Assembly: GCA_028753945.1 (NCBI GenBank)
Contig: JAPNXP010000001.1
Coordinates: 13,072,501-13,136,500 of the forward strand
DNA length: 64,000 nt
Direction of reading: 5' to 3'
Source: Hexactinellida sp. DTS-2022
Lineage: Eukaryota > Porifera > Hexactinellida
The position numbers and the translations under genes were made by a program. The notes under the pieces are model-generated. The model was not told the DNA's origin and made no database searches. It was given only the letters and a program-made list of their open reading frames with translations. This document shows positions 2,043-64,000 of the stretch, in pieces (the first letter of the stretch is position 1; each line of letters opens with the position of its first letter).

Positions 2043-4558
2043 TCAAACCGATTTTTCATTTTCAAATGAACACTGGGATGTTTCATAAATTTCTCTGAAG
2101 GCTTTCGATACTTTTGTTGTGCACGTTTTGTCTGAGAGAGAGTTATAATAAGAAAATAGAACTAAGCCTAACTCGTAGAAATCGATTGGTGGATGACATA
2201 AAGAGCCACGGGAAACCAGCTCAGTAAATTTTGATTGGGGACAATCTTCAATTGTTGAGTGTGATCCAATATTCTCCTTTTTGGCGACAAATCCTGAAAT
2301 ATAATACACAGTGGACTTGTCAAATTCACTGAGATGAATAGTATCAGAAAAACAGGTATCCAATAGTTCAACCTCTTCCTCTTTCAAATCAGCGGAACAA
2401 CACTCTCTATCATAATGAACAACGGTTTCGTAAATATCAAGTCGGTCAAAAATTTTAATTCTTTGGAGTTTGAGACTATTTTTTATTTTCTCACTTGACA
2501 TGTAAAAGTTTCCTCCATTAAGTTGTCTGTATATTCCAAACTCTGCCTCTAATCGATCGCTTTGCATCGTACCTGACAGGACGTAGTGAATTCCCGGTTT
2601 GGACAAAAGTGTTTGAATTAGAACTACCATTCCATTCATTAAGAGTCAAAGAAAGAGCATTGCTTGTTTGTTTGGTCAAACACATGACTCTTGTTGAGTA
2701 CGGTGTTAAACTCGTATCCATCTTCTTGAAGGTAAGTGCCATATTCATAATGTAATCGAACCTTGGGTCATCAATGGAACGATATGCTTCACGATCTGGA
2801 TCGTTGTAAGCTTGCCCAGAGTACAAATTTTTCACATTTAGCATGTGAAATAACCTAGTGACATGACGTACAAAGGTTGCAGTTCCATGGTTACCATCTG
2901 TTCGCAAAACCGCCACAGTTTTCTCGTTAAAAAGATTCAACGTCAAGTCTACTTTTTGTTTATCAAAATTAGGAATACCGTGGAAAACGCTAACTTGGTT
3001 TGTTTAATAATCGAATTTTTTTCTCTTTAATAAATTGCAATAACATGTCCAAAATCTGCATTCATTTCTTCATGCGTTAACGGATCGCAAAAACGTATTT
3101 CTTCATTTTTTCAGTAGTCCAATTATTTTTGATGTTTTTAAAAAGATGAATTGTATCGTACAGCGTGAACAATAATCTGAAAACATCGTTAGGAACTGGA
3201 TGTTGGATACTGTAGTTATTTACACTGACAAATTTCTCGTGAAGCATTCGAAAGAATTTAATATTCGCTGCAAGATTATCGTTCATTACTAAATACACAT
3301 AGCCTGATGACTCGTGAATAATCTTTATTAGAGCTATAACTTGAGTATAAATTAACTCTGCAGATAATGAATAAATAGGAATTAACCTGGCCACAAATGT
3401 TGGAGCCCCGAAAATGGGGCATACCATTAACGCCAACATCGTTCTTGCTGGTTTAGCAGTGTCAGTAGCAAATCCAATGATATGATTACCCTGGTATCGA
3501 ATAGATGGTTTGATGTAAACTTCATCCACTAGAATCTTACAATACTTTTGGGGCCCCTCAAGTTCCATAAAAACGGTTTTTACTACCTGTGTACATTCTT
3601 GTACTGATCCAGGATCGGAAAGTGTTCCGAATAAAGATTTTATCTGACGTGGGTGGGGTAAAATTAGAAATTCTCTCAATGCTGAGTAGCAGTTTCGACT
3701 TCGTAGGAAGAGGCCTATAGCATTTTTAAAATCAAACGCAGAGTACCTTCGACCATGTTCGCTGAATGAACATAATTCCAACTGTCTCGCTAAGAACTCA
3801 ACTCGTTCTCTCTGTTCATTATTAAGTATTTCCTGACTTTAAAAAAAAACCATTTCAGAAGTATAGGCCAACCTTGCTCTTAATTCCGGTTCATAATCGC
3901 AAACAAAACTGATGATTTCTCTCAACTGCGAATAACTTTCAAGTATTGAATTAAATCCAAAGAATTGCCTAATATGTACTTTTATTTGTTCTCTGAAGCA
4001 TGTAACTTTGAAATTATATGTAATACGTGTAGTTATAGAAAATGAAATCGATGGTGGCTGATTGTCTTGGTAATTGAATTTGAAAAGAGTTAGAGATGAT
4101 TCATGTTTGTCTTTAACAAGATCCAATGAATCACAATAAGATATGAAATCATCCCATGATTTTATCTTATCTTTTTGTTGATTGGCCTGCTCCACACGTT
4201 TTTCAGTTAATTATTTGCGAATTTCTGAAGAAATCCGACGGGCATTGACTTTTCGCAACTTTTTAGGGCCAGTTTGTCTACAACACGATTGCGGTACTCT
4301 GATAAATATTGATGGAGCAACTGCAGGGACCAGATATCTACCAGAAAGCCTGGTAGGGTACTTAGGGGGCCAGTGAAGTTCACATATCCCCATATTGTCC
4401 GTTATGTTATTATTCTCAATCGACGCATTTGGAAGGGCTCTAACCCACAACTCCTTTTCACTTTTGTCCTTGGGAAATCCATAGATTATACCATTAAATT
4501 TAGACGGATTCCACTTATACCCAGAACGGCAATTGTAAACTGAACACTTTCTTCCCAT
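2043..4558 (-). pseudogene. THAP9/P-element-like transposase, broken
   Basis: Read 5' to 3' on the minus strand, pieces of one transposase appear in order. At 4558-4211 is a THAP zinc-finger domain (Cys-x4-Cys near the start, later Cys-x2-His, and a conserved Pro/Trp framework), which would bind the element's ends. A linker-like frame follows at 4195-3839. The catalytic region at 3781-3077 contains FGTLSDPGS, an acidic DEVYIKP and a DTIHLFKNIKNNW motif. The fragments at 2946-2518 and 2639-2043 carry SDRLEAEFGIYRQLNGGN, typical of the C-terminal RNase H-like part of THAP9/P transposases, and a SGFVAKK motif. Stops and frameshifts (near 4205, 3838, 3070 and 2630) separate the pieces, so the copy is inactive unless some breaks are introns; I see no convincing splice pairs. 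Confidence 0.85.
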
Positions 4559-8450: not shown

Positions 8451-8594
8451 GATGTAACGCTCACGCATTATTAGGATACCACAGTATAGTAGTATAATAG
8501 TATGTCAACTTAGTATTCCGACTATAGTGTAGTATAGCTGAACTTACTTGTATTTCTATTACATATATATACGTTATATCTTCTTCGCGTCACA
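8451..8594 (+). repeat. 5' LTR of gypsy element
   Basis: 144 bases beginning gatgtaacgctcacg and ending cttcgcgtcaca, identical to 12981-13124. A TG...CA form is obtained if the LTR starts at 8453. It is short for gypsy LTRs. The gag ATG is only 24 bases beyond its end, leaving little room for a primer-binding site, and I do not recognise a tRNA match there. Confidence 0.9.
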
Positions 8595-8618
8595 TAAATA
8601 CAAGTAGTCAGTGTCTGG

Positions 8619-10874
8619 ATGGCCGCACCCATGAATATTTCAATTCCACCGCTGAGACCTGGAGAACGGATCGAAGAGTGGCAACCACTGTTCGTAGCCG
8701 CCACGAGCTCGCTCGCAGCCCACGCTGGCGAAAAGGCAGTCATTCAAATCTTACCTTCGTACGTATGCAGGGACGAGTTTGAGAGGGATACAACGCTATT
8801 AGCTATAAAAGAAGAGTCAGTAGAGGCAGCATTCAAAGTTCTCAGCAACGCTTTAGACGCCCCAATTGACGAGTTTGAAGCTACATCAAGATTCCGTAGC
8901 ATGATCTGGGCAAGAGGAACACGTATCGAAGTGTTCTTTACCCGATTATGGAAGGAGGCAAAACGAGCAGGGTTTCTCAATCGACAGGTTTGCATAACCC
9001 TAGTAACTCAACTCCCAAACAAGGTGTGTTCTACCTTAAAGAGGTGGTTACGCGAGCGAGACGAAAGCACAGTGTCTGATACTCAAATGCGGGAGTTTAT
9101 AAGTCTCGTGCAACAGAATCTGCGCCAAGCGGATGTGCCTTTAGATTACGGAGCACGAGAAGCGCCTGAGGAGAAAGCTGTCGGTCACTGCAAAATGGTT
9201 AGCGAAGACGCGAGAGAAGACCAGCAGTTGAACGAGTCGGAGGCAGATCCATCCTTTCCTCATGTGTGGAAGATCCGACAATATGGATCTGAAAGGAGGG
9301 GTGAGCGGATCTACCGAGGTGCGTCACGTGGATACAGCCACATAACCTGTTTTACATGCGGCAGAAGGGGGCATGGCTACCAAAGATGTCCAGATAGGAT
9401 ATGCAACGATTGTCATGGAAAGGGCCATGATGTACAAGAGTGTACGGCTGAATGGCGAGGTAGCAGCGGGAGAAGAGGAAGGAATTACACAAGAAAAGAT
9501 TATGTAAAGAATTTGGGAGTTAGCAACCAGGCAGACGAGAAAGCAGCATCCATTTCGGTGAGAGTCGGAGATAGTACCATACGCGCCCTATTAGATACCG
9601 GGGCGAAGGTCAATGTTATGGACGTACAAACTATGCGGGAGTTAGGGCTGACCGATCGCTTAATGTCCAAGACAGGGCAAGTTTACGGGGTTGGCGGAGC
9701 ACCCGTTACAGTCGTTGGAAGTGTAGACATTCCGATTAGCGTGAGCGGTGAAGAGGCCCGCTGGACGCTCGTACACGTATTAGAGGGCGAAGAACAGGCT
9801 TTGTTATTGGGTCGACAATTTCTAAAGTCATTTGGGCGCGTAACCTTTGATTGGGATGAAGGGGTTATTACACTGGGTAAAATCAGGATAGGGATCCAGG
9901 AACAGGCAACGGGAGGGGATCCATTGGCAAGAGCACGTTCAATAGCACAGATAAACAGGTGTGGCGAGGATCAACGAATCGAAGTTACCAAGACCGACTT
10001 AAATAGTGAACAACAGATCAAGTTCCTAACTTTGCTGAAAGAATTCGAACCGTTATTCAATGACATGCCGGGCCGAACCACTTTATGCGAACACGCGATT
10101 GACACAAGGGAAGCAGCCCCAAGCAAAGCGAGGCCCAGAAGATTGCCTCCCCAATGGGAAGATGAGATTAACTCGCAATTGGAAGAATTATTAAGTCAGG
10201 AATTATGTAGACCCTCCAACTCACCATGGGCGAGTAACGTGGTATTGGTTACCAAAAAGGACGGTAAGAAACGATTCGCCATCGACTACCGCGGGCTTAA
10301 TAGTGTAACAAAGAAGGATGCATACGGAATACCTCAAGTACAGGCAATTTTGGACAGACTACACGGTTTCCAGTATTTTTCAGTAATCGATATCTCGGCA
10401 GCGTATTGGTGCGTGCCTATGCGAGAAAGAGATGTAGAAAAGACGGCTTTCAACACGCCGAGAGGCCTTTTTGAGATGTTGGTCATGCCGTTTGGACTTG
10501 TGAACGCGCAGGCTACTTTCCAAAGGCTTATGGACAATACATTGCGTGGGCTCAAGCACACCGATTCATATATTGATGACCGTATCATATATTCCCATTC
10601 CTTTGAACAACATATGGAGGACTTACGGACAGTGTTTACCCGCTTGCACCAAGCTAGGCTTCATGTAAAGTTACTGAAATGTCAGTTTGCCCGTAAAAAG
10701 GTAGAATTCCTAGGTCATGTCGTAACCAGGCATGATCGAACACCCATGAGTTCTGCCGCCCAGAAATTGTCCAAGTTTCCTAGGCCTCAAAGAGTGACAG
10801 AGTTGCAGCGTTTTTTGGGAAGCCATGTCGGAAATGGCAAACCTATTTGGGAGCCAGAGGTGAGGTGGATCTAA
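8619..10874 (+). CDS. Gypsy Gag-protease-RT polyprotein (truncated by rearrangement)
   Basis: A single 751-residue frame. The Gag part is followed by two CCHC zinc knuckles at residues 244-257 and 262-275. The aspartic protease has DTGA at 326-329 and a LLLGR segment near 396-400. The reverse transcriptase has FAIDYRGLN near 553, a catalytic Asp at 591 and the YIDD box at 651-654. Gag and Pol share one frame with no visible frameshift signal. After the motif RFLG (about base 10,825) the frame leaves normal gypsy sequence and ends in a short unrelated tail at 10,874, because the following tether/RNase H segment has been moved and inverted. The ATG at 8619 is chosen because it directly follows the 5' LTR. 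The product would have an active-looking RT but no complete RNase H or integrase. Confidence 0.9.
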   Translation: MAAPMNISIPPLRPGERIEEWQPLFVAATSSLAAHAGEKAVIQILPSYVCRDEFERDTTLLAIKEESVEAAFKVLSNALDAPIDEFEATSRFRSMIWARGTRIEVFFTRLWKEAKRAGFLNRQVCITLVTQLPNKVCSTLKRWLRERDESTVSDTQMREFISLVQQNLRQADVPLDYGAREAPEEKAVGHCKMVSEDAREDQQLNESEADPSFPHVWKIRQYGSERRGERIYRGASRGYSHITCFTCGRRGHGYQRCPDRICNDCHGKGHDVQECTAEWRGSSGRRGRNYTRKDYVKNLGVSNQADEKAASISVRVGDSTIRALLDTGAKVNVMDVQTMRELGLTDRLMSKTGQVYGVGGAPVTVVGSVDIPISVSGEEARWTLVHVLEGEEQALLLGRQFLKSFGRVTFDWDEGVITLGKIRIGIQEQATGGDPLARARSIAQINRCGEDQRIEVTKTDLNSEQQIKFLTLLKEFEPLFNDMPGRTTLCEHAIDTREAAPSKARPRRLPPQWEDEINSQLEELLSQELCRPSNSPWASNVVLVTKKDGKKRFAIDYRGLNSVTKKDAYGIPQVQAILDRLHGFQYFSVIDISAAYWCVPMRERDVEKTAFNTPRGLFEMLVMPFGLVNAQATFQRLMDNTLRGLKHTDSYIDDRIIYSHSFEQHMEDLRTVFTRLHQARLHVKLLKCQFARKKVEFLGHVVTRHDRTPMSSAAQKLSKFPRPQRVTELQRFLGSHVGNGKPIWEPEVRWI

Positions 10875-11005
10875 TAACAGACCATTGTCCGCTAAAATGG
10901 CTTCGAAACCAGAAGGACCCTCGTAGGACATTTGCGAGATGGATACTAGAATTAGAGGAATATTCGTATACCATCACCCACCGGCCCGGTAAAGAAAACA
11001 ACTTA
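10828..11005 (+). pseudogene. Displaced RNase H C-terminal segment
   Basis: The plus frame reads KWQTYLGARGEVDLITDHCPLKWLRN and on to HRPGKENN, the second half of a gypsy RNase H. It follows RT directly. The first half of RNase H, which should come between them, lies further on and in the opposite orientation (about 11,005-11,342). The displaced arrangement removes a contiguous RNase H. Confidence 0.8.
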
Positions 11006-11342
11006 GAGCCCAAGCTTCTAGCTGCCCCGCGCTATAATTTCTCTGAGCGCCGCTAAGGGAGGACGAAAAGTAGTCTATGGGGTGCAACTGCCCGGTTTCC
11101 TCATTTCTCTGAGACAACACTGCTGCTACAGCTGTTGCGCTGGCATCTGCCTCGATTACGAATTTATTTCTCCAGTCCGGAAATGCCAGCAATATTGGTT
11201 CCTGTACGAGCTTGTGTCGCAGGGAGTCAAAGGCGTCCTCGCATTCACTATTCCAAACCCAGCTAGCCCCTTTTCGTGTCAATTCGTATAGGGGCGCGGC
11301 TAAATGGGCCAATTCCGGGATGTACGAGCGATAAAAGTTCAT
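11005..11342 (-). pseudogene. Inverted RT-tether / RNase H N-terminal segment
   Basis: The minus strand is open from 11,342 and reads NFYRSYIPELAHLAAPLYEL, then EADASATAVAAVLSQ and YFSSSLSGAQRNYSAGQLEAWAL. This is the gypsy RT connection and RNase H beginning, including its catalytic Asp in EADAS. It is the piece missing between RT and the plus-strand RNase H C-terminus. The frame runs on past about 11,005 into nonsense antisense sequence. Confidence 0.85.
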
Positions 11343-11727
11343 ACCAGACTATTTAAGCAGAAACCCCAACGTAGCAATCGACGCGAAAGTTCAAGATGAA
11401 AGTGTCTTCGAAGATAAAGTTTTTGCAGTAAAGACTAATGTTCACGTTGAGAGCAGGTGGGATGCGTTTCAAATGCAAAGACAGCAGAAACAGGACCCAG
11501 TAACAAGTGAGGCCCTGGAACAATTACAAACGAAGGGAAGAGTTAGCTCGGGGCAACTCCGTGACGTCGCAGAGCATTTAAATGTCACGAATGGCCTACT
11601 ACTATTTCAGGATCGCGTAGTTGTACCAAGCGAAGCCCAAGATGAAGTGGTGAAAAGAGTACACGCTGCGGGCATTTCGGGCAGAGGAGGACCTTGCAGA
11701 ATCTCAGAAGAAGTTATTTTTGGTTAG
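11341..11727 (+). pseudogene. Pol linker and start of integrase, frameshifted
   Basis: From 11,347 the plus strand reads DYLSRNPNVAIDAKV and continues open to 11,727, the normal join from RNase H to integrase. The integrase zinc-binding region begins near 11,660 (RVHAAGIS), but the second expected His is lost. A frameshift near 11,690 passes the reading to the overlapping frame at 11,694. Apart from that shift the segment is well preserved. Confidence 0.75.
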
Positions 11728-12971
11728 GTATGTCACGGGATGCGCGAAAGGTTTGTCAAAGCTGTTTTACATGTCAGAGAGCCAAGGAATCAAACCGGGC
11801 AAAAGTACCGATCCAGGATTTCAGAGTCGAGGGACTTGGTCCGGGGGATTTGGTAGCCATGGATGTAGGAACCCTACCGTGGGCAGATGACAAGTTTCGA
11901 TACTTCTTTTGTATTGTAGATGTTTTTACACGGTACATCGAACTGGCTCCTCTTCAGGACCAGACCGCTGCATCCCTAATACGCGAATTCGAACGAGGAT
12001 GGATCTTTCGTGGGCATGGTGTACCCAGAGGCTTGTTATCAGATCAAGCACACAACATAGATGGCGTTGAAGTTAGGAAGATGTGCGATAGGTTGGGCAT
12101 TGAGAAACGACACTCATTACCCTATCACCCACAAGCGGACGGACTAGTCGAGAGAAGCATTGGCTTAGTCAAGCAAGTTGCTAGATGCTTAACGCTAGAC
12201 CGCCAACTACCTAAGGAATCATGGCCTGACATTTTGCCTGAAGTGGCCTTTTATTGTAACAACGCTGAGAATTCCTCTACTAAATTCTCTGCACAACTCC
12301 TAATGACGGGCAGACAGCCATTGTCCCCCATAGATGCAATGTTGACTAGGAAGGAGTGGACGAGCGAACTCAGCTACAGTCAGCACACAGAGAGGCTGAA
12401 ACAACTCTCATCGGAATTAAAGAGTTTAGCAGCTGAAAACGACAGGCAAAGCAGGATGGACAGGAATTACAGCAGAAACCAAGGGGCTCAACTCCCTCCG
12501 TTCGCGAAGGGCGACCTGGTGCTAGAAGCAAACGCAAGGTGCAGAGATTCTCTTGACCCCAAATATGGCGGGCCTTACGTAGTTGCGGCAGTTTGGGGAG
12601 CTAACGTCAAGATAAAGAAGGGAAGCAAACTAAAATGGATTCATGTCAGTCGTTGCAAACTGTTCAAGGAAGGCGGACAGATTCCCATTACCACAAGGGT
12701 AGTAGAACAAGCCGCGAGTACTGAAGGTCCAGAGGGAAAGGATTTCACAGGAGGTGAAGAGCTCCACGATGCAAGTTTCGAGCCCATCGAGCAGGAGCTG
12801 TTAATGGACACAACAGAAATAGAAAACCCACACCAAGTGGAACAAGAACCGGATGAGCAGGAGGCAGAAGTTCCGACCCAAAGGAGATATCCGTTGCGCA
12901 ATCGTAAATCTAAGAAATACGATGACTATGTGTTGGTGGTGCATCACGACACAGATCTCGATTGGTTTTAG
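11694..12971 (+). CDS. Gypsy integrase (frame detached from upstream pol)
   Basis: A 425-residue frame with the Cys pair of the HHCC zinc finger (CFTC at 24-27) and a retroviral-type integrase core. Candidate catalytic residues are Asp57 (VAMDVG), Asp117 (LLSDQA) and Glu153 (DGLVERS). The spacing of 35 residues between Asp117 and Glu153 fits the D,D(35)E rule exactly. The C-terminal tail is charged and ends next to the polypurine tract and 3' LTR. In the source element this would continue the Gag-Pol frame; here it starts after a frameshift in the zinc-finger region, so it is unlikely to be expressed correctly. Confidence 0.85.
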   Translation: MQNLRRSYFWLGMSRDARKVCQSCFTCQRAKESNRAKVPIQDFRVEGLGPGDLVAMDVGTLPWADDKFRYFFCIVDVFTRYIELAPLQDQTAASLIREFERGWIFRGHGVPRGLLSDQAHNIDGVEVRKMCDRLGIEKRHSLPYHPQADGLVERSIGLVKQVARCLTLDRQLPKESWPDILPEVAFYCNNAENSSTKFSAQLLMTGRQPLSPIDAMLTRKEWTSELSYSQHTERLKQLSSELKSLAAENDRQSRMDRNYSRNQGAQLPPFAKGDLVLEANARCRDSLDPKYGGPYVVAAVWGANVKIKKGSKLKWIHVSRCKLFKEGGQIPITTRVVEQAASTEGPEGKDFTGGEELHDASFEPIEQELLMDTTEIENPHQVEQEPDEQEAEVPTQRRYPLRNRKSKKYDDYVLVVHHDTDLDWF

Positions 12972-12980
12972 AGGAGGAGT

Positions 12981-13124
12981 GATGTAACGCTCACGCATTA
13001 TTAGGATACCACAGTATAGTAGTATAATAGTATGTCAACTTAGTATTCCGACTATAGTGTAGTATAGCTGAACTTACTTGTATTTCTATTACATATATAT
13101 ACGTTATATCTTCTTCGCGTCACA
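12981..13124 (+). repeat. 3' LTR of gypsy element
   Basis: Identical to 8451-8594 and directly preceded by the purine-rich tract agaggaggagt (12,970-12,980). The base after it, 13,125, resumes the duplicated flank (acagttaaac), which matches copy 2 at about 62,313. Confidence 0.9.
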
Positions 13125-14920
13125 ACAGTTAAACTCGAGAAATTTCCGTTCCCATAGGAACACAAAGTATCTATAGCTATCACTAGATCTTATGCTTACA
13201 TGTGTTATGAGATGATGCCACGATCTAGTATGAGGCTAGTCGCTGTTCCTACCCATCCCACACTAGGGATGTTATGTGAGTGGTTTCGTCCCATTGCAGG
13301 GACTCATCAGGAGGGTAACCCTCGACCCTCCGTACTGCCGGGCTGTGCCTCTCCGAGGTCCCCGCACTGCCCATGTGTCACTCATGGGTTACCAGCCCTA
13401 CTCCCAGGCTTGCAGCCTCCGACCCATAGGCAGAGTGCCTCCTACTGCCATCCTACATAGGCTATCCAACTGAATGATAATACTGTATGGTATTATTTGC
13501 CTTGACTAATAAGTACTTACATTCAGAGAGAAACATGGGTGTATTTCGCTGACACATTACACATGTGACCCATGAGCAGTATTGATCTGCTCACAAAGTT
13601 TGTTATAAACCCTTCAAACATTCATATAATGTTCATGCAATAAAACTCATATGTTTTTAGCATAGCCCTGTCCTGCCTGCACTTTGGTAATTTACCAAAT
13701 TATTTGAATGGATTTTATTAAAATTGCATTTGTTTTTCAGATCATTAACATCCTATCTCAAGACATCTGTATTTAGTAGACTCACTTAGTACGAACAAGG
13801 TTCTTATAGTCGCATAAAAAGTAAACATTCCTGAGCGCGATAATCGAGAGATACTCGATACATACCGTATATACTCTAATAGAAGCCCCTATTCGAATAA
13901 TCGCCTACCTCGAATAAATGCTTCCCCCCCCCCCCAAATTAGCAAATACAAATTTAAGACCGGTACCTGAGTAAATTTCTTTATCTAATATTAGTCGCAA
14001 TACAATTATCAACCGACTATACTATATAAATTGTATCAATATGTTCTATTCTCGAAAAGTCACAAATACTTTTGTTCAGAAAATGGACTAAAAACAATAA
14101 TTCCCGAGGCTACTATTCGACTATTCTAGTCAATGCAGAATGAGAAATCTATGCGCTTTTGATCGATATGTATCAAACTTAATCTAGGCGCACAGAAAGT
14201 TTGCTTTTATTAAAACCTAAGAATGAACATCAAGAACCGTCGATACTTGTTGAATGTTCCATAAGTTAATTAAGTATACTTTAATATTTAATTAATTAAT
14301 GTTAAGTATATGGTTACAGTGTAATATGCATAGAGACTTTCCTATAAATAGTTTCATATTGTATCTGTCTATAAATAAGCTGATTTAGTGGCTCTATACT
14401 ATTTGACTCGACTTATACTAAATTCATAATAACATTATTCTTTGAGCTTATTTGTGTAAACTAAATCAGAAATTAATTACTTTCACAATTCATTACTTTG
14501 TCAATTTACCAGGTTAGTATTCATTATATTATCAACTATTTGTTTTGTTGTTTATTGCATTCCTTTATCCTAATATCTGTTGCTAGGAAACGTAACCTTA
14601 AGTTAATTGAAAATCTAAAAGGGATTTATTGAATTCAGACATCCTTCAATTCTCAGCAAATTTCAGTGAGTTGACTTGCTTATATTTTATAGAATTTCTA
14701 ACATATATATTCTATTCTTATTCTTATATGACTGTGTGACATTGTGTCGATATTAGATATTTGGATAATATTTCGAAAATATTTGGAAAGATGATGCGGA
14801 GGATGTGCCCAGGTTTTAAAGATTTTCTTCGCGCCTAGATTAAGTTTAAGTTCGCTCACACGCGCCCACAATACTCAATTTGTATACGTCTATTTGGGAG
14901 CATCTCTGGTTTTTCGCGCG
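13125..14920. repeat. Shared flank of the segmental duplication (copy 1)
   Basis: This tract aligns nearly base for base with 62,313-64,000. It includes the GC-rich ribozyme block (13,240-13,470) and an AT-rich remainder without ORFs. Visible differences are a longer C-run near 13,925 and a few indels. Parts (about 14,260-14,760) recur again at 34,220-34,650. No gene is seen. From 14,830 to 15,150 the sequence is unique in the window and I see nothing coding in it. Confidence 0.85.
13278..13330 (-). ncRNA. Hammerhead self-cleaving ribozyme core (copy 1), type III topology
   Basis: Read on the minus strand: a GAGGGTC arm (13,330-13,324) ends in the cleavage triplet GTC. Stem I is GAGGG-TTA-CCCTC. 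The invariant CTGATGA (13,310-13,304) follows. Stem II is GTCCC with loop TGCAAT and GGGAC. Then come GAAA and CC-A-CTC, which closes stem III with one bulged A (13,278 end). All catalytic core positions of the hammerhead consensus are present, and predicted cleavage falls between 13,324 and 13,323. Stem III is the open helix, hence type III. It lies in a GC-rich block about 450 nt upstream of the gag of the adjacent gypsy relic, once the later 4.7-kb insertion is removed. That is where a 5' LTR would be, but I could not delimit an LTR. Confidence 0.75.
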
Positions 14921-16879: not shown

Positions 16880-17419
16880 CTCACGGCCAAAAGTATTTGA
16901 ACATCAGTATTATGGATTCATATATTCAAGCTTCTAGCAACATAATAACATCAGTAGATGCTTCAAAATGGAAGTTGACATAAAATTATCCGTTAAGTAT
17001 AATAAAATGGCAAATATTTGAATTTAAATTTTATGGAGGTATTAAACTCATTACTATATAATTATCTAATTAAAAAGATAATTTCTGATCATTTTGAGGC
17101 AATTAGAATATACAAATTCAGATTGCAGATTTGATTACATATGTTATAATAACTCTAGATTCACAATTTCTACCATTGAGATGCCACTGAGATACAGCCA
17201 CATTCCCATTAGTGCCACTTGTTCCACAAGTAGAAAGTGACAGAAACACATATGCCACTTCATAAATAATGCAAATAATTGACTTAAAATAACAATGTTA
17301 TGAAGTTTAGAACCATAACAATAAATTAAACTAGTTTAAACAGCCGTCTACAAACTATTAGAAGCATATTGTGTATGGAATATAATTCCTGTTGTCCAAA
17401 TACTTTTGGCCGGTGAGTG
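16880..17419. mobile_element. mariner-like MITE directly upstream of NLR-1
   Basis: The inverted termini ctcacggccaaaagtatttg and caaatacttttggccggtgag are flanked by TA (16,878-16,879 and 17,420-17,421). Related copies are at 35,168-35,676 and 45,905-46,509. Its right end lies only 52 bases before the NLR-1 ATG, so it probably forms part of that gene's promoter or 5' UTR. Confidence 0.75.
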
Positions 17420-17471
17420 TATTCATCCAATATATATTACTGTATATCCCTCTAGGAACTACCATTGTCGA

Positions 17472-20400
17472 ATGGATATTTCTGAACTAACTGCGTTGAC
17501 AGATCTATCGAATGAATTAACAATTGGTGACGTTAAGCAAATACGAAATGAAATTGGAATACCAGAAGCTTTGTGTGAAGATTTGTCGCAAGTTACGAAG
17601 TTTCTTTTTGCAATCAGAAGATGGACGGGACACAAACCGTTCCTTTTTTATATGGCCCTAAAGCGTGTGAGGCCTGAATTAACGGAAAAAGCATGTAAAG
17701 TTAGATGGCTTTGCAATTCCTCGCCCGACGGGACTGAATTCCAACAAGAAGAAATGTTATCCATTAAAACACTGGTGCAACTTTTGAAATCAGAGATAAC
17801 TAATGTGCAATGGCTACTCATCTACATGACAGTAACATCTGAAGCAAAGGAAAATGTTAGTTTTTCTGATACACTGAGCCTGCTAATGGCGAAAGGTCTG
17901 GTTAAGAAAGACCTGAGTGCACTATGTGAAATCATTAAAGGAATCCAGAGGGAGGATGTCGTGAGAAAACTTCTGGTTTACAGGAATCTATTCATCCAAA
18001 TGGATGATGGTGAATTTGAAAACAAATTTAAGCGAGAATTGACAAGTCAAGTCAAAGAAATGAAACAGTGGGATGCCAATTTGAAAGATTTCTTACATAT
18101 CCAACACAGCACAGTTCAACAAATGCTAGGAGATGACGTATCGGTTAATCTAGCAGAGGTGTTCATCGACTTAACAATCCTAAGAGAGAAACCTCGACCC
18201 ATTAATATCCAAGATGAAACAACCTACAACGAGATTGCCTATCTCAGAAAGATTGCTAACAAAGAGGTAACAATACAGCCAGTTGACTTCACAAAAGAAT
18301 TGACAACATATGAATCTAAAAAGCCGGAAATTTGGTGCATCATAGGCAACCCCGGCAGTGGCAAAACATTCCTGGCCAAGCGAACAGCCCTCAGATTTAG
18401 TAGCAACGAACTAACCGGGATTCAATACTCAATTTCAATTCCCTGCCGCAATGAAGAATGGCATTCCATGGAGGTAGCAAGAATTCAGGAGGATAAGAAA
18501 GTCGACTCGGTATTTATACAAAAATGGATATGTCTGGGATTGCCGGTTGGACCCAGTTGGACAAATGATTTGGCGAAGCACTTGAATGAATCGAGTGGAG
18601 ACGGAGTCATGTTCATTATCGACGGACTAGATGAGTTTACCAGGAAAGTGCCATTCGAGAAAACATTTCTATGTTTGCTGCTGACAAGTCAAGCCATGAT
18701 AAAAGCAACCATAATTCTAACGAGTCGCCCCGGGGCATGGACTGACATCTCCTCTGCACACGAATTGAAAGTGAACAGGTACTATCAGGTGCTTGGGTTC
18801 TCGCCAGCCAATAGAGACCTTTACTTCGAGAAACAAATACGCAACGAAAAGAAACTGGAGGAATGCAAGAGTTTGCTAAAGCGACACGACGAAATGGATC
18901 AGCTCTCGTTAATCCCTGTAAATGCGTCCCTTTTCGCAGCTCTACTGAAAGGAGAAGATTCCACTCTCATTAACACTCTGACTAACCTCTACTACGAATT
19001 AACGCTTTACCTGATAAGGAGAGAACTGGCCCGAACCGGACTACCAGAATTCACACGAGTGGAACGCATATCCGATCTCCATGCCGACATACTTGAATGC
19101 CTAAGTAAAGTAGGATTCATCGCAATGCTCGGGGTAGCGAACAGAGAACTAACCTCGGAGGAAAACGTGCCTCTAACAATCGGACAAGAGGTTTACCCCA
19201 GTCAGTGCTTAGGTCTAGCTCATGAGCACTACAGAACTAACTCTGTCGGGTTGATAACCAAGGTGTGGACATTTGTGCATCTGACCATGCAGGAGTTCGT
19301 CTCTGCTCACTGGGTTAGCAACACTTCCTGGACAAAGCAGTGCTTCAGCATCAGGTACATATCCCACTCAGTTGATAACTTCTCGCTTTTCAAAATGGTG
19401 ACCAGATTCCTGTGCGGGCTCGTGACAGAGAAAGCAGCTGTTTTGCTAGTCATTATGTACAGACACCTAACCCCGCAACCAATCCCAATGATTGGAATGC
19501 CTATTACTTATAAACTAAGATATAGTGAGATATATGGCATGAGTGTGTGGGAAGAATTCACTAAAATATTTTTCGAATTAATCGCCATTGTATATGAAAC
19601 AAATTCTAATTCACTAGCCACCTGGTTTAATAACTTCAAACAGTATTTCCCTACTCACATATACCTCTATGTGCAGCAAGCCGTTTCTCCTAATGAATGG
19701 TTTTGTTTCTGTCAGTCTCTCGAACTTGTTAGTCGAATTCAACTCATTTACATCGACACTAGTGTCATCAATCCTACTCAGTTCAAATATTTGATAGAGA
19801 AAATGGGAATCTGTTCCATTAATATATTAGCATTGCGCTTCCATAGGACAGATTCCACTACAGTCCTATCATATACCAAAACAATTAGAGAGACAGGAAT
19901 TAAGTCTGACACTAAAATTAGTATTGAGCTATACGGCTGTAATTTCAGTGCTAAGACAGATGTTAATATCTTTCCTACACCAACCAATCAGATTGTAGAC
20001 AGCTTGAACCTATATGTGAATACATATTCACATAAAGCTCTTCAGGAATTAACCAATCTATTCTCTGCAATTCAATGCTTATATGTTCATGAATATGAAT
20101 CTGGAACTAAATACGTCACTATGGTACCAGCTCTGTGTCAGGCGACACAACTAAGAGTATTACACCTCTATAACATTCCTTCTGAACACATTCCTAGCCT
20201 AACAGCTGTGCTACCTCAGTTCTCTAAGCTACAAGAGATTGGATCCTATAATGCCTCACTGCTACCTGCAATTACTCATCTATCAAATCTAACTTATCTA
20301 CGGATACAAGATTATACAACACAAGACACAACTCTCTGTGATTATTTGCTGAAGATTATTCATGGGAACAGACACTCGTTAAGAGGAATGGAATTGTCCT

Positions 20401-20828
20401 ATTTGGGCATAATTGGATTGAATAATTGGTGTTCACTTCTCAATGGTTTGGAATTTTGCACTAACTTAGTTCAGCTACAGCTATGGTACACTTATCTACC
20501 AACTAATGACGTCACTCACTGGAGTAGCGCTGTTAAACAAATGAAGTCTTTAGTTGAATTGGAATTCCAGTATGTCTCGCTCTATGACACAGGATTATTA
20601 TATCTCTGTAAAGGCCTTATATACCATCCTGCTATTAGGAGTCTAGCGCTATATGACTGTGAGCTGACTTCTCTATCCTGTGAGCCTCTAACTAACCTAA
20701 TACCAACTGTCTCACAGCTGGAGAGACTGACCGTCAAAGTCTATGGACTAGATGAATCTGACAGAGATCCTATCTCATCACTCCAGGAAACAGCTGATGA
20801 GTTTGGTATTGAGCTTAAGCTGTCTTAG
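17472..20828 (+). CDS. NLR-1: NACHT-LRR innate immune receptor
   Basis: A 1,118-residue intronless gene. I start at ATG 17,472 because it aligns with the start of NLR-2; a longer frame upstream begins with TTG inside a MITE. Residues 3-80 and about 96-173 look like two death-fold modules, most like tandem death-effector domains (FYMALKRVRPEL, and LMAKGLVKKDL...GIQREDVV). A NACHT NTPase follows: Walker A GNPGSGKT at 292-299, Walker B FIIDGLDE near 380-388, and a TSRP sensor near 417. The winged-helix signature FVHLTMQEFVSA is near 602-613. The last ~370 residues are irregular leucine-rich repeats. By family knowledge it would oligomerise in the cytoplasm on sensing a microbial or damage ligand through the LRRs and signal through the death-fold domains. 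All key nucleotide-binding residues are intact. Confidence 0.9.
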   Translation: MDISELTALTDLSNELTIGDVKQIRNEIGIPEALCEDLSQVTKFLFAIRRWTGHKPFLFYMALKRVRPELTEKACKVRWLCNSSPDGTEFQQEEMLSIKTLVQLLKSEITNVQWLLIYMTVTSEAKENVSFSDTLSLLMAKGLVKKDLSALCEIIKGIQREDVVRKLLVYRNLFIQMDDGEFENKFKRELTSQVKEMKQWDANLKDFLHIQHSTVQQMLGDDVSVNLAEVFIDLTILREKPRPINIQDETTYNEIAYLRKIANKEVTIQPVDFTKELTTYESKKPEIWCIIGNPGSGKTFLAKRTALRFSSNELTGIQYSISIPCRNEEWHSMEVARIQEDKKVDSVFIQKWICLGLPVGPSWTNDLAKHLNESSGDGVMFIIDGLDEFTRKVPFEKTFLCLLLTSQAMIKATIILTSRPGAWTDISSAHELKVNRYYQVLGFSPANRDLYFEKQIRNEKKLEECKSLLKRHDEMDQLSLIPVNASLFAALLKGEDSTLINTLTNLYYELTLYLIRRELARTGLPEFTRVERISDLHADILECLSKVGFIAMLGVANRELTSEENVPLTIGQEVYPSQCLGLAHEHYRTNSVGLITKVWTFVHLTMQEFVSAHWVSNTSWTKQCFSIRYISHSVDNFSLFKMVTRFLCGLVTEKAAVLLVIMYRHLTPQPIPMIGMPITYKLRYSEIYGMSVWEEFTKIFFELIAIVYETNSNSLATWFNNFKQYFPTHIYLYVQQAVSPNEWFCFCQSLELVSRIQLIYIDTSVINPTQFKYLIEKMGICSINILALRFHRTDSTTVLSYTKTIRETGIKSDTKISIELYGCNFSAKTDVNIFPTPTNQIVDSLNLYVNTYSHKALQELTNLFSAIQCLYVHEYESGTKYVTMVPALCQATQLRVLHLYNIPSEHIPSLTAVLPQFSKLQEIGSYNASLLPAITHLSNLTYLRIQDYTTQDTTLCDYLLKIIHGNRHSLRGMELSYLGIIGLNNWCSLLNGLEFCTNLVQLQLWYTYLPTNDVTHWSSAVKQMKSLVELEFQYVSLYDTGLLYLCKGLIYHPAIRSLALYDCELTSLSCEPLTNLIPTVSQLERLTVKVYGLDESDRDPISSLQETADEFGIELKLS

Positions 20829-23599: not shown

Positions 23600-24340
23600 G
23601 TAATATTTTTCATAGTTATAAACTTATAATACCCGTTGAAAGCTAACTTCTAAGTTGATTTTGAATTTCATTAATTGTTTACCTATTTTGTATAAAAACA
23701 ACAACAAATATTCATATTATAAATATATAAATGCCAAATTCGAAATCAGCATACTTGTTTACATATAATATCCGTTGAAAGCTAACTTCTGGTTTGATTT
23801 TGAATTTTCATTAATTTGTTTACCTTTTTGTGTAAACAACAACAAATATTCATATTATAAATTTATAAATGCAAAATTCGTGTTCAGCACACTTGTTTAC
23901 CTATAATACCCGTTGAAAGCTAACTTCTAGGTCGATTTTGAATTTCATTAATTTGTTTACCTGTTTTGTGTAAACAACAACAACAAATATTAATATTATA
24001 AATTTATAAACGCTAAATTCGTCTTCAGCATACTTGTTTACCTATAATACCCGTTGGAAGCTAACTTATAGGTTGATTTTGAATTTTCATTAATTTGTTT
24101 ACCTATTTTGTGTAAACAACAACAACAAATATTAATATGAGAAATTTATAAACGCGAAATTCGTCTTCAGCATACTTGTTTACCTATAATATCCGTTGGA
24201 AGCTAACTTCTAGGTTGATTTTGAATTTTCATTAATTTGTTTACCTATTTTGTGTAAACAACAACAACAAATATTAATATGAGAAATTTATAAACGCGAA
24301 ATTCGTGTTCGGCATACTTGTTAACCTATTATAACATTTG
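23600..24340. repeat. ~140-bp tandem repeat array (5-6 units)
   Basis: Units start with tataatacccgttgaaagctaacttc or close variants at about 23,627, 23,766, 23,905, 24,043, 24,186 and 24,328, a period of 138-143 bases. Each contains aatttgtttacct and caacaacaaatatt. It is flanked by the GC-rich cassette at 23,488-23,580 and 24,452-24,580. No protein is encoded. Confidence 0.8.
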
Positions 24341-24451
24341 AAAGTTAGTTTATATCCCAATATTAATTGCGGTTTCTATTCCCCCATCACTTTAATATAA
24401 TCCGGACAAACACACAAACACACACAAACACACAACAATCGAGATTTAATA

Positions 24452-41053: not shown

Positions 41054-42685
41054 CAGGAGGGACTTCTTTAATATAGGGACTGTAAACTTCGTTTTACGGT
41101 AAAATTAGCGTAGGCCTAAAACAGTATTGTTACTTATTGATATCCCGTAATCCGCTAATGCTAGACACAGGAAATGTATTATTGTCGTATAGGAAGTCAT
41201 ATTTTGGGAGTCCAACGGTAATATTGGTTTATCGAAAATATTTGTGGAATGTAAGTTATGCGATTTTCACACCCTTCCATATATGGTAATATTGTTAAAA
41301 TCTCGAGATTACTTAACTTTATACATATGAAATGTATCATTTTCGTACAGGAATTCATATTTTGGGAGTCTAACGGTCATATTGGTTTATCGAAAATATT
41401 TGTGGAATGTAAGTTATGCGATTCTCACACCTTTCCATATATGGTAATATTGTTAAAATCTCGAGATTAGTTAGTTTTATACATATTAAATATATTATTG
41501 GCGAATGGGAAATGGGAATTCATATTTAAGGACTCAGTAGATCACATTGATTTACCTAAGGCGTTCCCCTTAGCCTATATTATTATTTTGGAACTCTCCA
41601 CAGGAGGATTGCCCCGACCCTGTTTTGTAGTTTAGCTAATACTTACATATCAGATATCTGTCATTATGTTGTTTATTAAAAAACAACAAGGCTGGATTCG
41701 GTTAACCGGTTACCGTTGCTGATATCAGTTAACGATTAGAGATTTTATTAACCAGTTAGCCGGTCTGTTGAATAACAGTAGAGTTATTGGGAAATTAATG
41801 TATAAAGTATTAAATCTTTTTGAATTTTATCAGAATATGTAGTCCTAAATCCATTTCTCATCACCATTTAATACATTTTATTGGACAACATTGATTTAAA
41901 TATAGATTTGAAAGAAACTTATCAAGATTTTTTAATAATGTAAGAATTAGCAAAACTACAAAACAGGGTCGGGGCAATCCTCCAGTAGAGAATGCCAAAA
42001 TAATAATATAGGCTAAGGGGAACGCCTTAGGTAAATCAATGTGATCTACTGAGTCCCTAAATATGAATTCCCATTTCCCATTCGCCAATAATATATTTAA
42101 TATGTATAAAACTAACTAATCTCGAGATTTTAACAATATTACCATATATGGAAAGGTGTGAGAATCGCATAACTTACATTCCACAAATATTTTCGATAAA
42201 CCAATATTACCGTTGGACTCCCAAAATATGAATTCCTGTACGAAAATGATACATTTCATATGTATAAAGTTAAGTAATCTCGAGATTTTAACAATATACC
42301 ATATATGGAAGGGTGTGAAAATCGCATAACTTACATTCCACAAATATTTTCGATAAACCAATATGACCGTTAGACTCCCAAAATATGAATTCCTGTACGA
42401 AAATGATACATTTCATATGTATAAAGTTAAGTAATCTCGAGATTTTAACAATATACCATATATGGAAGGGTGTGAAAATCGCATAACTTACATTCCACAA
42501 ATATTTTCGATAAACCAATATTACCGTTGGACTCCCAAAATATGACTTCCTATACGACAATAATACATTTCCTGTGTCTAGCATTAGCGGATTACGGGAT
42601 ATCAATAAGTAACAATACTGTTTTAGGCCTACGCTAATTTTACCGTAAAACGAAGTTTACAGTCCCTATATTAGAGAAGTCCCTG
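41054..42685. mobile_element. P-like foldback element with tandem-repeat arms
   Basis: CA...TG termini (caggagggacttc...gaagtccctg) and an exact 7-bp duplication gcttagt (41,047-41,053 and 42,686-42,692). The arms are inverted repeats of over 400 bases containing a ~160-bp unit (ggaattcatattttgggagt through ttaactttatacatatg) twice on the left and three times on the right. Related single units occur at 53,800-54,040 and 59,440-59,640. There is no transposase, and the open frames in the arms are artefacts. Confidence 0.8.
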
Positions 42686-47845: not shown

Positions 47846-50800
47846 ATGGCAATCGAAGAGCTCTCTGCCTTAACGGAACTCACCAACAAGTTAACATCCG
47901 AAGAAATACTACTAATCAAGAATGAAATTGGTATCCCAGAAGGATTGTGTGAAGATATCACTCAAAAATCGAATTTCCTAATCGCAATGAAACAATGGAA
48001 AGGTAGAGACGCCCACAAGTTCTATCTGGCCCTACAGCACATCCGACCCGACTTGTCAGAAATAGCTTGTGATGTAAAGTGGCTATGCGCCTCATCCCCA
48101 GTAGAAACCGAATTCCAAGAGGAGGAACTGTCAATCAAAACTCTAATCAATCTACTGAGAGATGAAATCCCTCTGGATAAATGGACGTTAATATACATAG
48201 CACTGATAAATGAACCAATTGAGAATATCAGTTTTGAGATGGTCATGAACAAACTGATGGAAAACGGATTTATTCAGAAAGACCTAATAAATCTGACAAA
48301 GATCCTGGTGGGAATCCAAAGAAATGACGTGGTTGTACAATTGAAGGTCTACATTAATTTATTCTCGAAAATGCAGGAAGGAGAGTTTGAAAGCAAATTT
48401 AAGCGAGAGATCGGAATGCAGGAAAAAGAATTGAAAGAATGGGAATCCAATCTCAAACTATTCTCTCTATTTCAACATGGAAAAGTCAAGGAGATGATGG
48501 GCTCAGACAAATATGCGAGTCTAGCTGATGTGTATATCGACTTGACAATATTGAAGGAAGAACCACAGGAAATTAACTTGGAGGACGAAACAACCTATAA
48601 CGAGATCGCAATGTTGAGAAGGATTGCGAAAGAGGGTGGTTGGAAAAAGACAGTTGATTTCACTGAGGAAATAGTGACATATGAACGCACAAAACCAGAG
48701 ATTTGGTGCATAATCGGGAATCCAGGGTGTGGGAAAACGTTTCTAGCAAAGCGAACGGCACTGCGATTCAGTAGCAGCGAATTAGTCGCCATTAAATATT
48801 CAATCTCCATTCCTTGCCGCAATACCGATTGGCATTCCATGGAAGCAACACGTTATGAAGTGGGAAGCAAAATAGATTCCGAATTTAAGCAAAAATGGTT
48901 GGTGCTGGGGTTGCCCATGGGATCTAGTTGGTCAAACGATTTAGCAAAGCATCTTAACCAATCAGATGGAGAGGAACTCCTCTTAATTATAGACGGCATG
49001 GATGAATTCACCAAGAGGGTTCCATTCAAAGATACGTTTCTATGTTTGCTACTGAAGCGACAAACGCTAATACGATCCACGATTATTGTCACGAGTCGCC
49101 CCGGTGCATGGACTCTCATCTCCTCTACACACAAACTGAAAATAGACAGATACTATAAAGTGCTAGGATTCTCGCCAAAGAATAGAAATCTCTATTTCAA
49201 AAAACAGATAACTAACAAAAAGAAATTAACGGAATGCTTTAACCTAATGAAAAGACACGATGAGATGAAGCAACTATCCCTAATACCCGTAAACGCATCG
49301 TTATTCGCGGCACTACTGAAAGGAGAGGATTCTACCTCCATTAATACGCTAACCAAGCTCTACTACGAATTAGTACTGTACATGATCAGGAGAGAATTAA
49401 TAAGAATGGGCCTAAAAGAGTACTCTCGAGTCTCACGCATTTCAAACCTCCACACAGACATACTAGCCTGCCTGCATAGAATAGGATTCATAGCAATCCT
49501 CGGAGTGGCAAACAGAGATCTGGTATCGGAAGAGACAGTAACTCTCAATTTGGGACAGGAAGAATACCCATGCCAGTGCTTAGGTCTAGCTCACGAGCAC
49601 TACCGAAAGGAATCCGTCGGCCTTATGAAACAAGTGTGGACATTTGTCCACCTGACTATGCAGGAGTTCGTATCTGCCCTCTATTTGGAACACACTAGCT
49701 GGATTAAGCAGTGCTACAGTGTTAGGTATATTTCCCACTCCGAGGCTAACTTATCCCTGTTCCGAATGGTAGTCAGGTTCCTCTGTGGACTCCTGTCTGA
49801 TAAAGCAGCTGCTCTTCTTTCCATCCTATACAGGTACCTGACTCCTCAGCCCATTCAGCTTATCGATATGCCTATGAGCTATCAACTTACTTACAGTCAT
49901 TTGTATCACCATGAAGGTTGGAATCTATTTACCAAAATCTATTTCCAATTAGCCTCAATTTTATTCGAAACTTACTCAGATTCAATTCCTTTTTGGTTCA
50001 ATAACTTCAAACAGCACTTTCCGATGCCAGTGTATCTGTATGTACGAGAATCCGTCTCTCCCAATGAATGGATTTGTTTTATTCAGACTCTCAAACTCGT
50101 TCGTCGAATTCAACTCATTTATATCGACACTAGTCATATCAATCCGACTCAATTCAAATCTTTTATACAAGAAATGGGAATCTGTTCCATTAATTTGTTA
50201 GCTTTGCGCTTCTATGAGTATGATTTCACTACAGTCCTATCGTATACCGAAACAATTAGAGAGACAGGAATTAAGAATGACACTAAAGTTAGTATTGAGC
50301 TACATAGCTGTGATTTCAGTGCTGAGACAGATGTTAATCTTTTTCCTACGCCAACCAATCAGATTAACGACAGCTTGAAACTAATTAGTAATAATTATTC
50401 ACATAAAGCACTTCAGGAATTAACCAATCTATTCTCTGCTATTCAATGCTTATGTGTTTATGAATATGAATCTAGAACTAAATACGACATTATGGTACCA
50501 GCTCTGTGTCAGGCGACACAACTAAGAGTATTGCACCTCAATACCATTCCTTCTAAACGCATTCCTAGCCTAACAGCTGTGCTACCTCAGTTCTCTAAGC
50601 TACAAGAGATTGGACTCGGTAAATCCTCACTGATACCTGCAATTACTCATCTGTCAAATCTAACTTATCTACGAATACAAGATTATTCAACACAAGACAC
50701 AACTCTCTGTGATTATTTGTTGCAGATTATTAAAGGGAACAGCCACTCGTTAAGAGGAATAGATTTGTGGTATTTGAACAAAATTGGATTGAATAATTGG

Positions 50801-62066: not shown

Positions 62067-62312
62067 GATATAGAGCGATAATAGTTTAATAGTGGTTATT
62101 CAATACATAGGCGTAGCACGCGATTCGGCTGGTCCGGCCATGGCCCGATCATTTGTTCTACTATATTATGTAGGAGGGTACAGTTGTGCCCGTCCACTTT
62201 AACTGTTTGGTCGGAGACTTTTCAGGGCCGTGCGACGCCTCTGCAATATATTGTTAATTCTATTGCACTTTTGATCAACATTCATTCTTTAATCTCGGGA
62301 CTGTAACATGTA

Positions 62313-64000
62313 CAGTTAAACTCGGATATCCGTTCCCATAGGAACACAATGTATCTATAGCTATCACTAGATCTTATGCTTACATGTGTTATGAGATGAT
62401 GCCACGATCTAGTATGAGGACTAGTCGCTGTTCCGACCCCATCCCATACTGGGATGTTATGTGAGTGGTTTCGTCCCATTGCAGGGACTCATCAGGAGGG
62501 TAACCCTCGACCCTCCGTACTTCCGGGCTGTGCCTCTCCGAGGTCCCCGCACTGCCCATGTGTCACTCATGGGTTCCCAGCCCTATTCCCAGGCTTGCAG
62601 CCTCCGACCCATAGGCAGAGTGCCTCGTACTGCCTTCCTACATAGGCTATCCAACTGAATGATAATACTGATGATATAATGTGCCTTGACTAATAAGTAC
62701 TTACATTCAGAGAGAAACCTGGGTGTATTTCGCTGACACATTACACATGTGACCCATGAGCAGTATTGATCTGCTCACAAAGTTTGTTATAAACCCTTCA
62801 AAGATTCATATAATGTTCATGCAATAAAACTCATATGTTTTTAGCATAGCCCTGTCCTGCCTGCACTTTGGTAATTTACCAAATTATTTGAATGGATTTT
62901 ATTAAAATTGCATTTGTTTTTCAGATCATTAACATCCTATCTCAAGACATCTGTATTTAGTAGACTCACTTAGTACGAACAAGGTTCTTATAGGCGCATA
63001 AAAAGTAAACATTCCTGAGCGCGATAATCGAGAGATACTCGATACATACCGTATATACTCTAATAGAAGCCCCTATTCGAATAATCGCCTACCTCCAATA
63101 ATATCCCCCCCAAATTAGCAAATACAAATTTACTACCGGTACCTGAGTAAATTTCTTTATCTAATATTAGTCGCAATACGATTATCAACCGACTATACTA
63201 AATAAATTGTATCAATATGTTCTATTCTCGAAAAGTCACAAATACTTTTGTTCAGAAAATGGACTAAAAACAATAATTCCCGAGGCTACTATTCGACTAT
63301 TCTAGTCAATGCAGAATGAGAAATCTATGCGCTTTTGATCGATATGTATCAAACTTAATCTAGGCGCACAGAAAGTTTGCTTTTATTAAAACCTAAGAAT
63401 GAACATCAAGAACCGTCGATACTTGTTGAATGTTCCATAAGTTAATTAAGTATACTTTAATATTTAATTAATTAATGTTAAGTATATGGTTACAGTGTAA
63501 TATGCATAGAGACTTTCCTATAAATAGTTTCATATTGTATCTGTCTATAAATAAGCTGATTTAGTGGCTCTATACTATTTGACTCGACTTATACTAAATT
63601 CATAATAACATTATTCTTTGAGCTTATTTGTGTAAACTAAATCAGAAATTAACTACTTTCACAATTCATTACTTTGTCAATTTACCAGGTTAGTATTCAT
63701 GATATTATCAACTATTTGTTTTGTTGTTTATTGCATTCCTTTATCCTAATATCTGTTGCTAGGAAACGTAACCTTAATTGAAAATCTCAAAGGGATTTAT
63801 TGAATTCAGACATCCTTCAATTCTCAGCAAATTTCAGTGAGTCACTTGCTTATATTTTATAGAATTTCTAACATATATATTATATTCTTATTCTTATATG
63901 ACTGTGTGACATTGTGTCGATATTAGATATTTGGATAATATTTCGAAAATATTTGGAAAGATGATGCGGAGGATGTGCCCAGGTTTTAAAGATTTTCTTC
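62313..64000. repeat. Shared flank of the segmental duplication (copy 2, to window end)
   Basis: Matches 13,125-14,830 nearly base for base and is still matching at the last base of the window, so the duplication continues beyond 64,000. No gene lies in it except the ribozyme core. Confidence 0.88.
62463..62515 (-). ncRNA. Hammerhead self-cleaving ribozyme core (copy 2)
   Basis: Sequence over the whole core is identical to copy 1 (13,278-13,330): GTC cleavage triplet, GAGGG-TTA-CCCTC stem I, CTGATGA, GTCCC/GGGAC stem II with TGCAAT loop, GAAA, and stem III with one bulged A. Predicted cleavage lies between 62,509 and 62,508. The gag ATG of the adjacent relic is about 450 bases downstream on the same strand, without the later LTR-element insertion seen in copy 1. 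Confidence 0.75.

Follow-up and report, generated by a model that had tools for sequence, protein, structure and literature searches.

A conserved family of type III hammerhead ribozymes in the LTRs of gypsy-type, retrozyme-like elements from a probably animal genome

The stretch of DNA analysed here, 64,000 nt in length and referred to as the window, carries a hammerhead ribozyme motif close to a Ty3/gypsy element, raising the question of which element the motif belongs to and whether it represents a conserved ribozyme. A sequence-only reading of the window had described all invariant hammerhead elements and three helices on the minus strand, and every one of these was found: GTC, CTGATGA and GAAA are all present in 13278-13330, stem I has 5 bp and a TTA loop, stem II has 5 bp and a 6-nt loop, and stem III has 3+3 bp and one bulged A. 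The same reading had proposed a search with an Infernal type III model. Using the Rfam covariance model Hammerhead_3 (RF00008), full-length matches were obtained at 13278-13331(-) and 62463-62516(-), both with 53.7 bits and thus above the gathering score of 48.5 (E 4.6e-9). Cleavage is expected between 13324 and 13323. Folded on their own, the 53 nt adopt the hammerhead shape as the structure of lowest energy (-19.2 kcal/mol). When 6 and 7 flanking bases were added (66 nt), the stem III strand instead paired into a more stable hairpin that competes with the hammerhead (-21.8, z -1.49), and 14/200 shuffles folded equally well. Stem III is unbulged in many other copies in the genome (GTGGTC..GAAACCAC); the corresponding sequence of the window group is GAGGGTC, which reads as one base lost compared with the other copies. 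Judged from its sequence, the window hammerhead may cleave itself.

Table 1. Positions of the ribozymes, LTRs and associated features in the window
Feature	Position	Strand	Basis or remarks
Type III hammerhead ribozyme	13278..13330	(-)	RF00008 53.7 bits and minimum-energy fold of 53 nt
Paralogous hammerhead ribozyme	62463..62515	(-)	Same 53 nt, identical
Solo LTR, 359 bp, of retrozyme-like element	13203..13561	(-)	TG..CA ends, CATG duplication, 3' end common to other genome copies
Sense strand of solo LTR	start TGTAATGTG, end CATCTCATAACA	(-)	
Target site duplication (CATG), first copy	13199..13202	.	
Target site duplication (CATG), second copy	13562..13565	.	
Paralogous solo LTR in duplicated segment	62387..62745	(-)	CATG at 62383-62386 and 62746-62749
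Ty3/gypsy element, separate from ribozyme element	8451..13124	(+)	Identical 144-bp LTRs at 8451-8594 and 12981-13124

The ribozyme lies within an LTR (Table 1). In an alignment of near-identical genome copies the repeat starts with TGTGACGAG and ends with CATCTCATAACA, while the flanks are unrelated. The copy in the window is a solitary LTR and not an end of a complete element. It was copied later by segmental duplication, giving the paralogue in the duplicated segment 60194-64000. That the 53 ribozyme bases are unchanged in the paralogue, as pointed out previously, is true, yet it is by itself a weak sign of constraint, since the 359-bp LTRs differ at 15/361 aligned columns and about two changes would be expected in the ribozyme. 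The identity of the two ribozymes in the window was therefore dropped as proof of selection.

The motif had also been placed beside a Ty3/gypsy relic and considered a possible 5' LTR ribozyme of a gypsy-like element or retrozyme. The Ty3/gypsy element exists and contains protease, RT and integrase domains, but it is a different insertion. Its 144-bp LTRs lack the hammerhead motif, and 78 bp separate its 3' LTR from the ribozyme LTR. Moreover, the paralogous segment is without the gypsy element, its flanks meeting at 62312/62313, and the ribozyme is retained there. The ribozyme thus does not belong to the adjacent gypsy element, and this candidate was ruled out. What stands of the proposal is a type III hammerhead in the LTR of a gypsy-related, retrozyme-like element, as outlined below.

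Within 8451-8640 of the neighbouring gypsy element, an 11-nt stretch after the 5' LTR (TACTTGTATTT) is complementary to the element's own LTR. Such an 11-nt match to the LTR occurs in 2 of 4366 20-base stretches in the internal region, one of them being this place. By its sequence, the element may be self-primed in the manner of the Tf1/sushi type. Elsewhere, the window encodes two long single-frame NACHT proteins of ~1100 aa (17406-20828 and 47846-51193). For the protein at 47846-51193, 344 relatives were listed with E up to 0.001, and weak, below-cut-off DED and NLRC4_HD2 matches were obtained for the window NACHT protein or its relatives. These matches point to an animal host, a sponge being a guess. 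A search for the Wnt family gave zero matches in this genome and likewise in every control, and thus carries no information on the host. An ORF at 3077-3781 matches a TNP-like RNase H N-terminal domain and is possibly a transposase remnant. Tandem arrays with periods of ~142 and 157 bases are located at 23625-24344, 41171-41500 and 42087-42571.

The genome, comprising 112 Mb in 18 contigs, was searched for further copies. RF00008 yielded 68 scored matches, 64 of them above the gathering score, the best reaching 64.3 bits. Allowing for at most 2 mismatches, a 32-base core pattern was found at 374 places, the reversed control at none; three exact stem II pattern classes gave 129, 70 and 42 matches with no match in any of their controls. 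Cores are present on 18/18 contigs, which argues against contamination. The exact core pattern had no match in viral contigs or in prokaryote genome contigs, and a comparison of the LTR with phage records gave no match.

Copies were gathered with the expression CTGATGA[AG]..GAAAC, and core identity is hence 100% by construction. For analysis of covariation, 62 of 82 copies were aligned after removal of 19 duplicates and one loop-deletion copy (in L007); one row (L056:1175-1234) holds the 3' part of the motif only. Standard pairs occupied 91.9% of the pair cells, compared with 43.5-61.1% when the pairing was slid. Cells altered on both sides numbered 33, against a shuffled mean of 11.2 and with 0/500 shuffles as high, although the rows are related and the cells consequently not independent; a slide of +3 yielded 27 such cells. 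Two-sided changes were seen in six pairs, three in stem III and three in stem II (43/500 shuffles reach six), and compensatory changes in stem I were absent from the 62-copy alignment. In folds of the individual copies, stem III had a pair probability >0.5 in 61/82 and was not kept in the remaining 21/82. Mean pairwise identity among 49 LTRs was 0.90 for the 54-nt motif, compared with 0.62-0.67 for the upstream and 0.79-0.85 for the downstream parts; these LTRs were also picked by an LTR-end motif, and only the remainder of the ribozyme motif is informative, part of the core having been used for selection.

LTR 3' ends were also collected independently of the ribozyme by means of a 19-base word, which gave 83 ends. 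For the 56 of these on contigs C1-C11, compared with a listing of 100 of the 129 matches of the core class, an exact core was located 82-92 nt upstream in 38. The other 18 had no exact core at the expected place; they include one truncated LTR, one stem II mutant and one end with a listed core 374 nt upstream. Taken together, the 374 core places against none in the control, the compensatory changes and the cores upstream of LTR ends found independently of the ribozyme strongly support conservation. Thus, the type III hammerheads in LTRs of gypsy-type non-autonomous elements form a real, numerous and conserved family.

The LTRs have lengths of 299, 325 and 359 bp and TG..CA ends, with the hammerhead positioned in the 3' half. 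Most copies examined, including that of the window, are single LTRs. Target site duplications were analysed in 53 of the 82 copies, the 29 without a recognisable LTR end being dropped. An exact 4-bp duplication just before the TG start was present in 18/53 copies, whereas word-shuffled controls had a mean of 2.8 and a maximum of 9 in 1000 trials. Five of the 18 matches derive from the same insertion as the window LTR, and that at C1:171158 (TTTT) may be due to chance. With the window group counted once, exact duplications were found in 14/47 copies (shuffled mean 2.25, maximum 7 in 1000 trials).

Occurrence of the ribozyme block at both ends of gypsy elements had been suggested as a check. Two loci, L060 and a direct pair in L039, carry a pair of equally oriented LTRs, both of which contain a type III hammerhead; the regions between them are short and non-coding, and neither locus has a clean LTR-internal-LTR structure. 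In L060 (C1:9778) the two LTRs lie between CTAC duplications. The 5' LTR is truncated, missing its U5 end, and the 3' LTR of 299 bp is preceded by the polypurine tract AACAAGGGGGGTGA. The LTRs differ at 4/223 positions of the shared part, and the unit from ribozyme to ribozyme measures 385 nt. The direct pair in L039 (C1:7627) consists of 325-bp LTRs with one difference, separated by an internal region of 161 nt that ends in the polypurine tract AAAGGGAAGGTGA, the unit measuring 486 nt. Compared with the plant range of 400-1000 nt, this spacing falls inside and that of L060 just under. Circular folding of the two units gave energies of -203.9 (shuffled -152.1, sd 6.8) and -153.0 (shuffled -122.5, sd 5.4), with 40 base-shuffled versions of each unit as controls. 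Among the 212 listed cores, 13 direct pairs, 238-653 nt apart, and 14 inverted pairs were found within 1 kb, three of each coming from L039.

A link to the gypsy machinery emerged from the polypurine tract and LTR start. The box word RRRRRGGTGATGTKAYR, built from the two polypurine-LTR junctions (L060 and L039), had 30 matches in the genome compared with 3 in the reversed control, four of the 30 being inside L060 and L039. Fourteen of the 26 further boxes are located 1146-1220 bases behind a gypsy-type integrase zinc-binding domain on the same strand, the comparison using all of the best 150 of 885 integrase matches; 0.07 boxes would be expected within 4 kb of these. Two more boxes, outside the 14, follow RNase H domains at distances of 1675 and 1705 bases; for these domains, 13 of 150 matches were considered, chosen by eye for their nearness to boxes. 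Among the 82 examined ribozyme copies, none follows one of the 26 boxes at a distance of up to 1.5 kb, and in the longer list, in which one class is incomplete for C13-C18, C4:4429804 is the sole copy close behind a box (1.37 kb; by eye). The same kind of argument from polypurine tract and LTR start ties plant retrozymes to Ty3/gypsy elements in section 5 of PMC4918200. We infer that the ribozyme elements are moved by gypsy proteins. At C1:11801073 and 11806409 (+), two identical cores were observed in the same direction 5.3 kb apart, the size of a coding element. The search for coding elements between ribozyme LTRs was negative here, as neither an integrase nor an RNase H place lies in this interval among the best 150 of 885 and 150 of 364 matches, respectively.

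Inspected by eye, four junctions showed no tRNA primer site after the LTR, the sequence there being TAATA and not TGG. The LTR continues with TAATAACTACC (L039), TAATAACCCCT (L051), TAATATCTCCT (L041) and TAATAAGTTCC (L073), which is internal sequence in L039, L041 and L051 and an inverted LTR piece in L073. The 3' box of plant elements, a tRNA-Met primer binding site immediately following the LTR, was thus not found at these junctions, and the elements are consequently called retrozyme-like rather than placed among plant-type LTR retrozymes. Instead of a primer site, a hairpin of 25-36 nt begins exactly at the LTR end in eight copies from six loci, with quite different sequences. Stems with a shuffle p <=0.01 were detected at 12/54 LTR ends, these eight included; that of L073 is weak (p 0.19). 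In the copies examined closely, the hairpin runs on into sequence complementary to the LTR end. In L042 (C14), positions 2446-2939, the whole unit has the arrangement LTR-hairpin-inverted LTR, with ends TGTCATG..CATGACA and direct CGTA duplications on both sides (by eye), and by its sequence this palindrome was probably inserted as one piece. The direct pair of L039 is embedded in a nested palindrome of ~2.2 kb (2224-4407). This palindrome is bounded by CTAT duplications (by eye) and holds five ribozyme cores, in both orientations.

The 4-bp duplications at the L042 and L039 palindromes, together with the similar numbers of inverted (14) and direct (13) pairs, underlie a tentative model in which animal LTR retrozymes do without a tRNA primer. 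Reverse transcription of the RNA, either cut by the ribozymes or circular, would be primed by the fast-evolving, self-complementary hairpin immediately after the LTR. The plus strand of the DNA, with the hairpin at its end, would then snap back and prime its own complement, giving palindromic LTR-hairpin-LTR' DNA, which gypsy integrase would insert by its two identical ends. We regard this model as possible, with the balance of probability against it.

What, then, is the ribozyme of the window? Very probably, as far as the sequence allows, it belongs to the LTR of a retroelement that is short and non-coding and works like a plant LTR retrozyme. The element would be non-autonomous, of gypsy type and retrozyme-like, with type III hammerheads, and the host lineage is probably animal. 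A transcript running through two LTRs would be cut twice by the hammerheads and the excised unit circularised; a gypsy reverse transcriptase would copy the circular unit into cDNA in trans, and the integrase of the gypsy element would insert the product.

It might be argued that the ribozymes of such LTR retroelements are inactive and conserved merely through the youth of the copies. The single difference in 325 between the LTRs of the L039 pair speaks for young copies, and the altered stem III of the window together with the 21/82 copies failing to keep stem III in the fold for inactivity; this explanation is nonetheless improbable given the compensatory pair changes and a motif identity (0.90 over 54 nt) that exceeds the upstream value (0.62-0.67) across divergent subfamilies in the 49 LTRs. 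Assignment of the motif to the 5' LTR of a coding gypsy family, or of the adjacent gypsy element, is very unlikely. Such an assignment would account for the short distance of 78 bp, for the polypurine tract and LTR start box common to the ribozyme elements and other gypsy elements, and for listed cores lying 5-8 kb apart in the same direction, as at C1:11801073/11806409. However, the 144-bp gypsy LTRs are devoid of the motif, the ribozyme persists at the paralogous site lacking gypsy, and the C1 interval includes no integrase or RNase H place among those listed (best 150 of 885 and 150 of 364).

Two further explanations seek the relatives of the ribozyme among other hammerhead elements. A metazoan non-LTR retrozyme or satellite, with tandem hammerhead repeats as in cnidarians, molluscs and amphibians, would agree with a probably animal genome, short units, hammerheads and some close pairs. 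The hammerhead is of type III, not type I, and occurs in dispersed single LTRs with 4-bp duplications and a polypurine tract, features absent from animal retrozymes as portrayed in the published descriptions drawn on here; we give this explanation little credence. Least probable of all is a terminal repeat of a Penelope-like or Terminon element. Hammerheads are described in the terminal repeats of these elements, but they are of the minimal type I, whereas the full type III model was matched here, and the TG..CA ends, 4-bp duplications, polypurine tract and gypsy box do not fit such a repeat. The retrozyme-like LTR element thus remains the favoured explanation.

According to the papers cited (PMC4918200, PMC7229834, PMC7761336, PMC7936874, PMC10886601), LTR retrozymes belong to plants, and the retrozymes of animals are of type I and non-LTR. 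No animal LTR retrozyme was named in the titles and abstract openings of the literature covered, a scope that leaves most subscription journals and repeat databases outside. Within the same scope, a literature search for hammerhead ribozymes in sponge genomes found none, and one for type III hammerheads in sponges found a single paper, on plants. Hundreds of type III cores, many of them in gypsy-type LTRs of a probably animal genome, would break this division between plants and animals. This suggests that LTR elements processed by ribozymes arose either independently or long ago, and viroid-like circular RNAs would gain a source among animals. With the hairpin and the palindromes, the priming of circular ribozyme RNA for reverse transcription becomes testable.

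Plant LTR retrozymes, as described by Cervera, Urbina and de la Pena (2016, PMC4918200), have two LTRs of ~300-400 bp, both containing a type III hammerhead. They are non-coding, are flanked by 4-bp target site duplications, and share polypurine tract and LTR start with Ty3/gypsy elements of the same genome; their motifs are mostly isolated, with some close pairs. The present elements resemble them in the type III hammerhead in both LTRs, the 4-bp duplications, the non-coding internal regions of the two loci, the gypsy polypurine tract and LTR start, and the mostly isolated motifs with some close pairs. They differ from that description in the probably animal host, in units of 385 and 486 nt (two loci) compared with plant retrozyme RNAs of ~600-1000 nt, in the hairpin present in several copies behind the LTR, where no tRNA-Met primer site was seen, and in the palindromic LTR-hairpin-LTR insertions. 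The metazoan non-LTR retrozymes described by Cervera and de la Pena (2020, PMC7229834) are short, non-coding hammerhead elements with repeats of 150-450 bp, arranged in tandem, with type I hammerheads and no LTR, PBS or PPT. With these the present elements have in common that they are short, non-coding, equipped with a hammerhead and located in an animal genome (here probably so); type III hammerheads, LTRs, target site duplications and a polypurine tract set them apart. In being small and gene-less they are akin to the non-autonomous TRIM/SMART LTR elements, from which section 5 of PMC4918200 distinguishes retrozymes by the catalytic RNA motifs in their LTRs. Finally, priming by the element's own RNA and not by a tRNA would be shared with Tf1/sushi-type Ty3/gypsy elements as portrayed in PMC7175516; there the primer is the 5' end of the RNA, whereas the candidate primer here would be the hairpin adjacent to the LTR.
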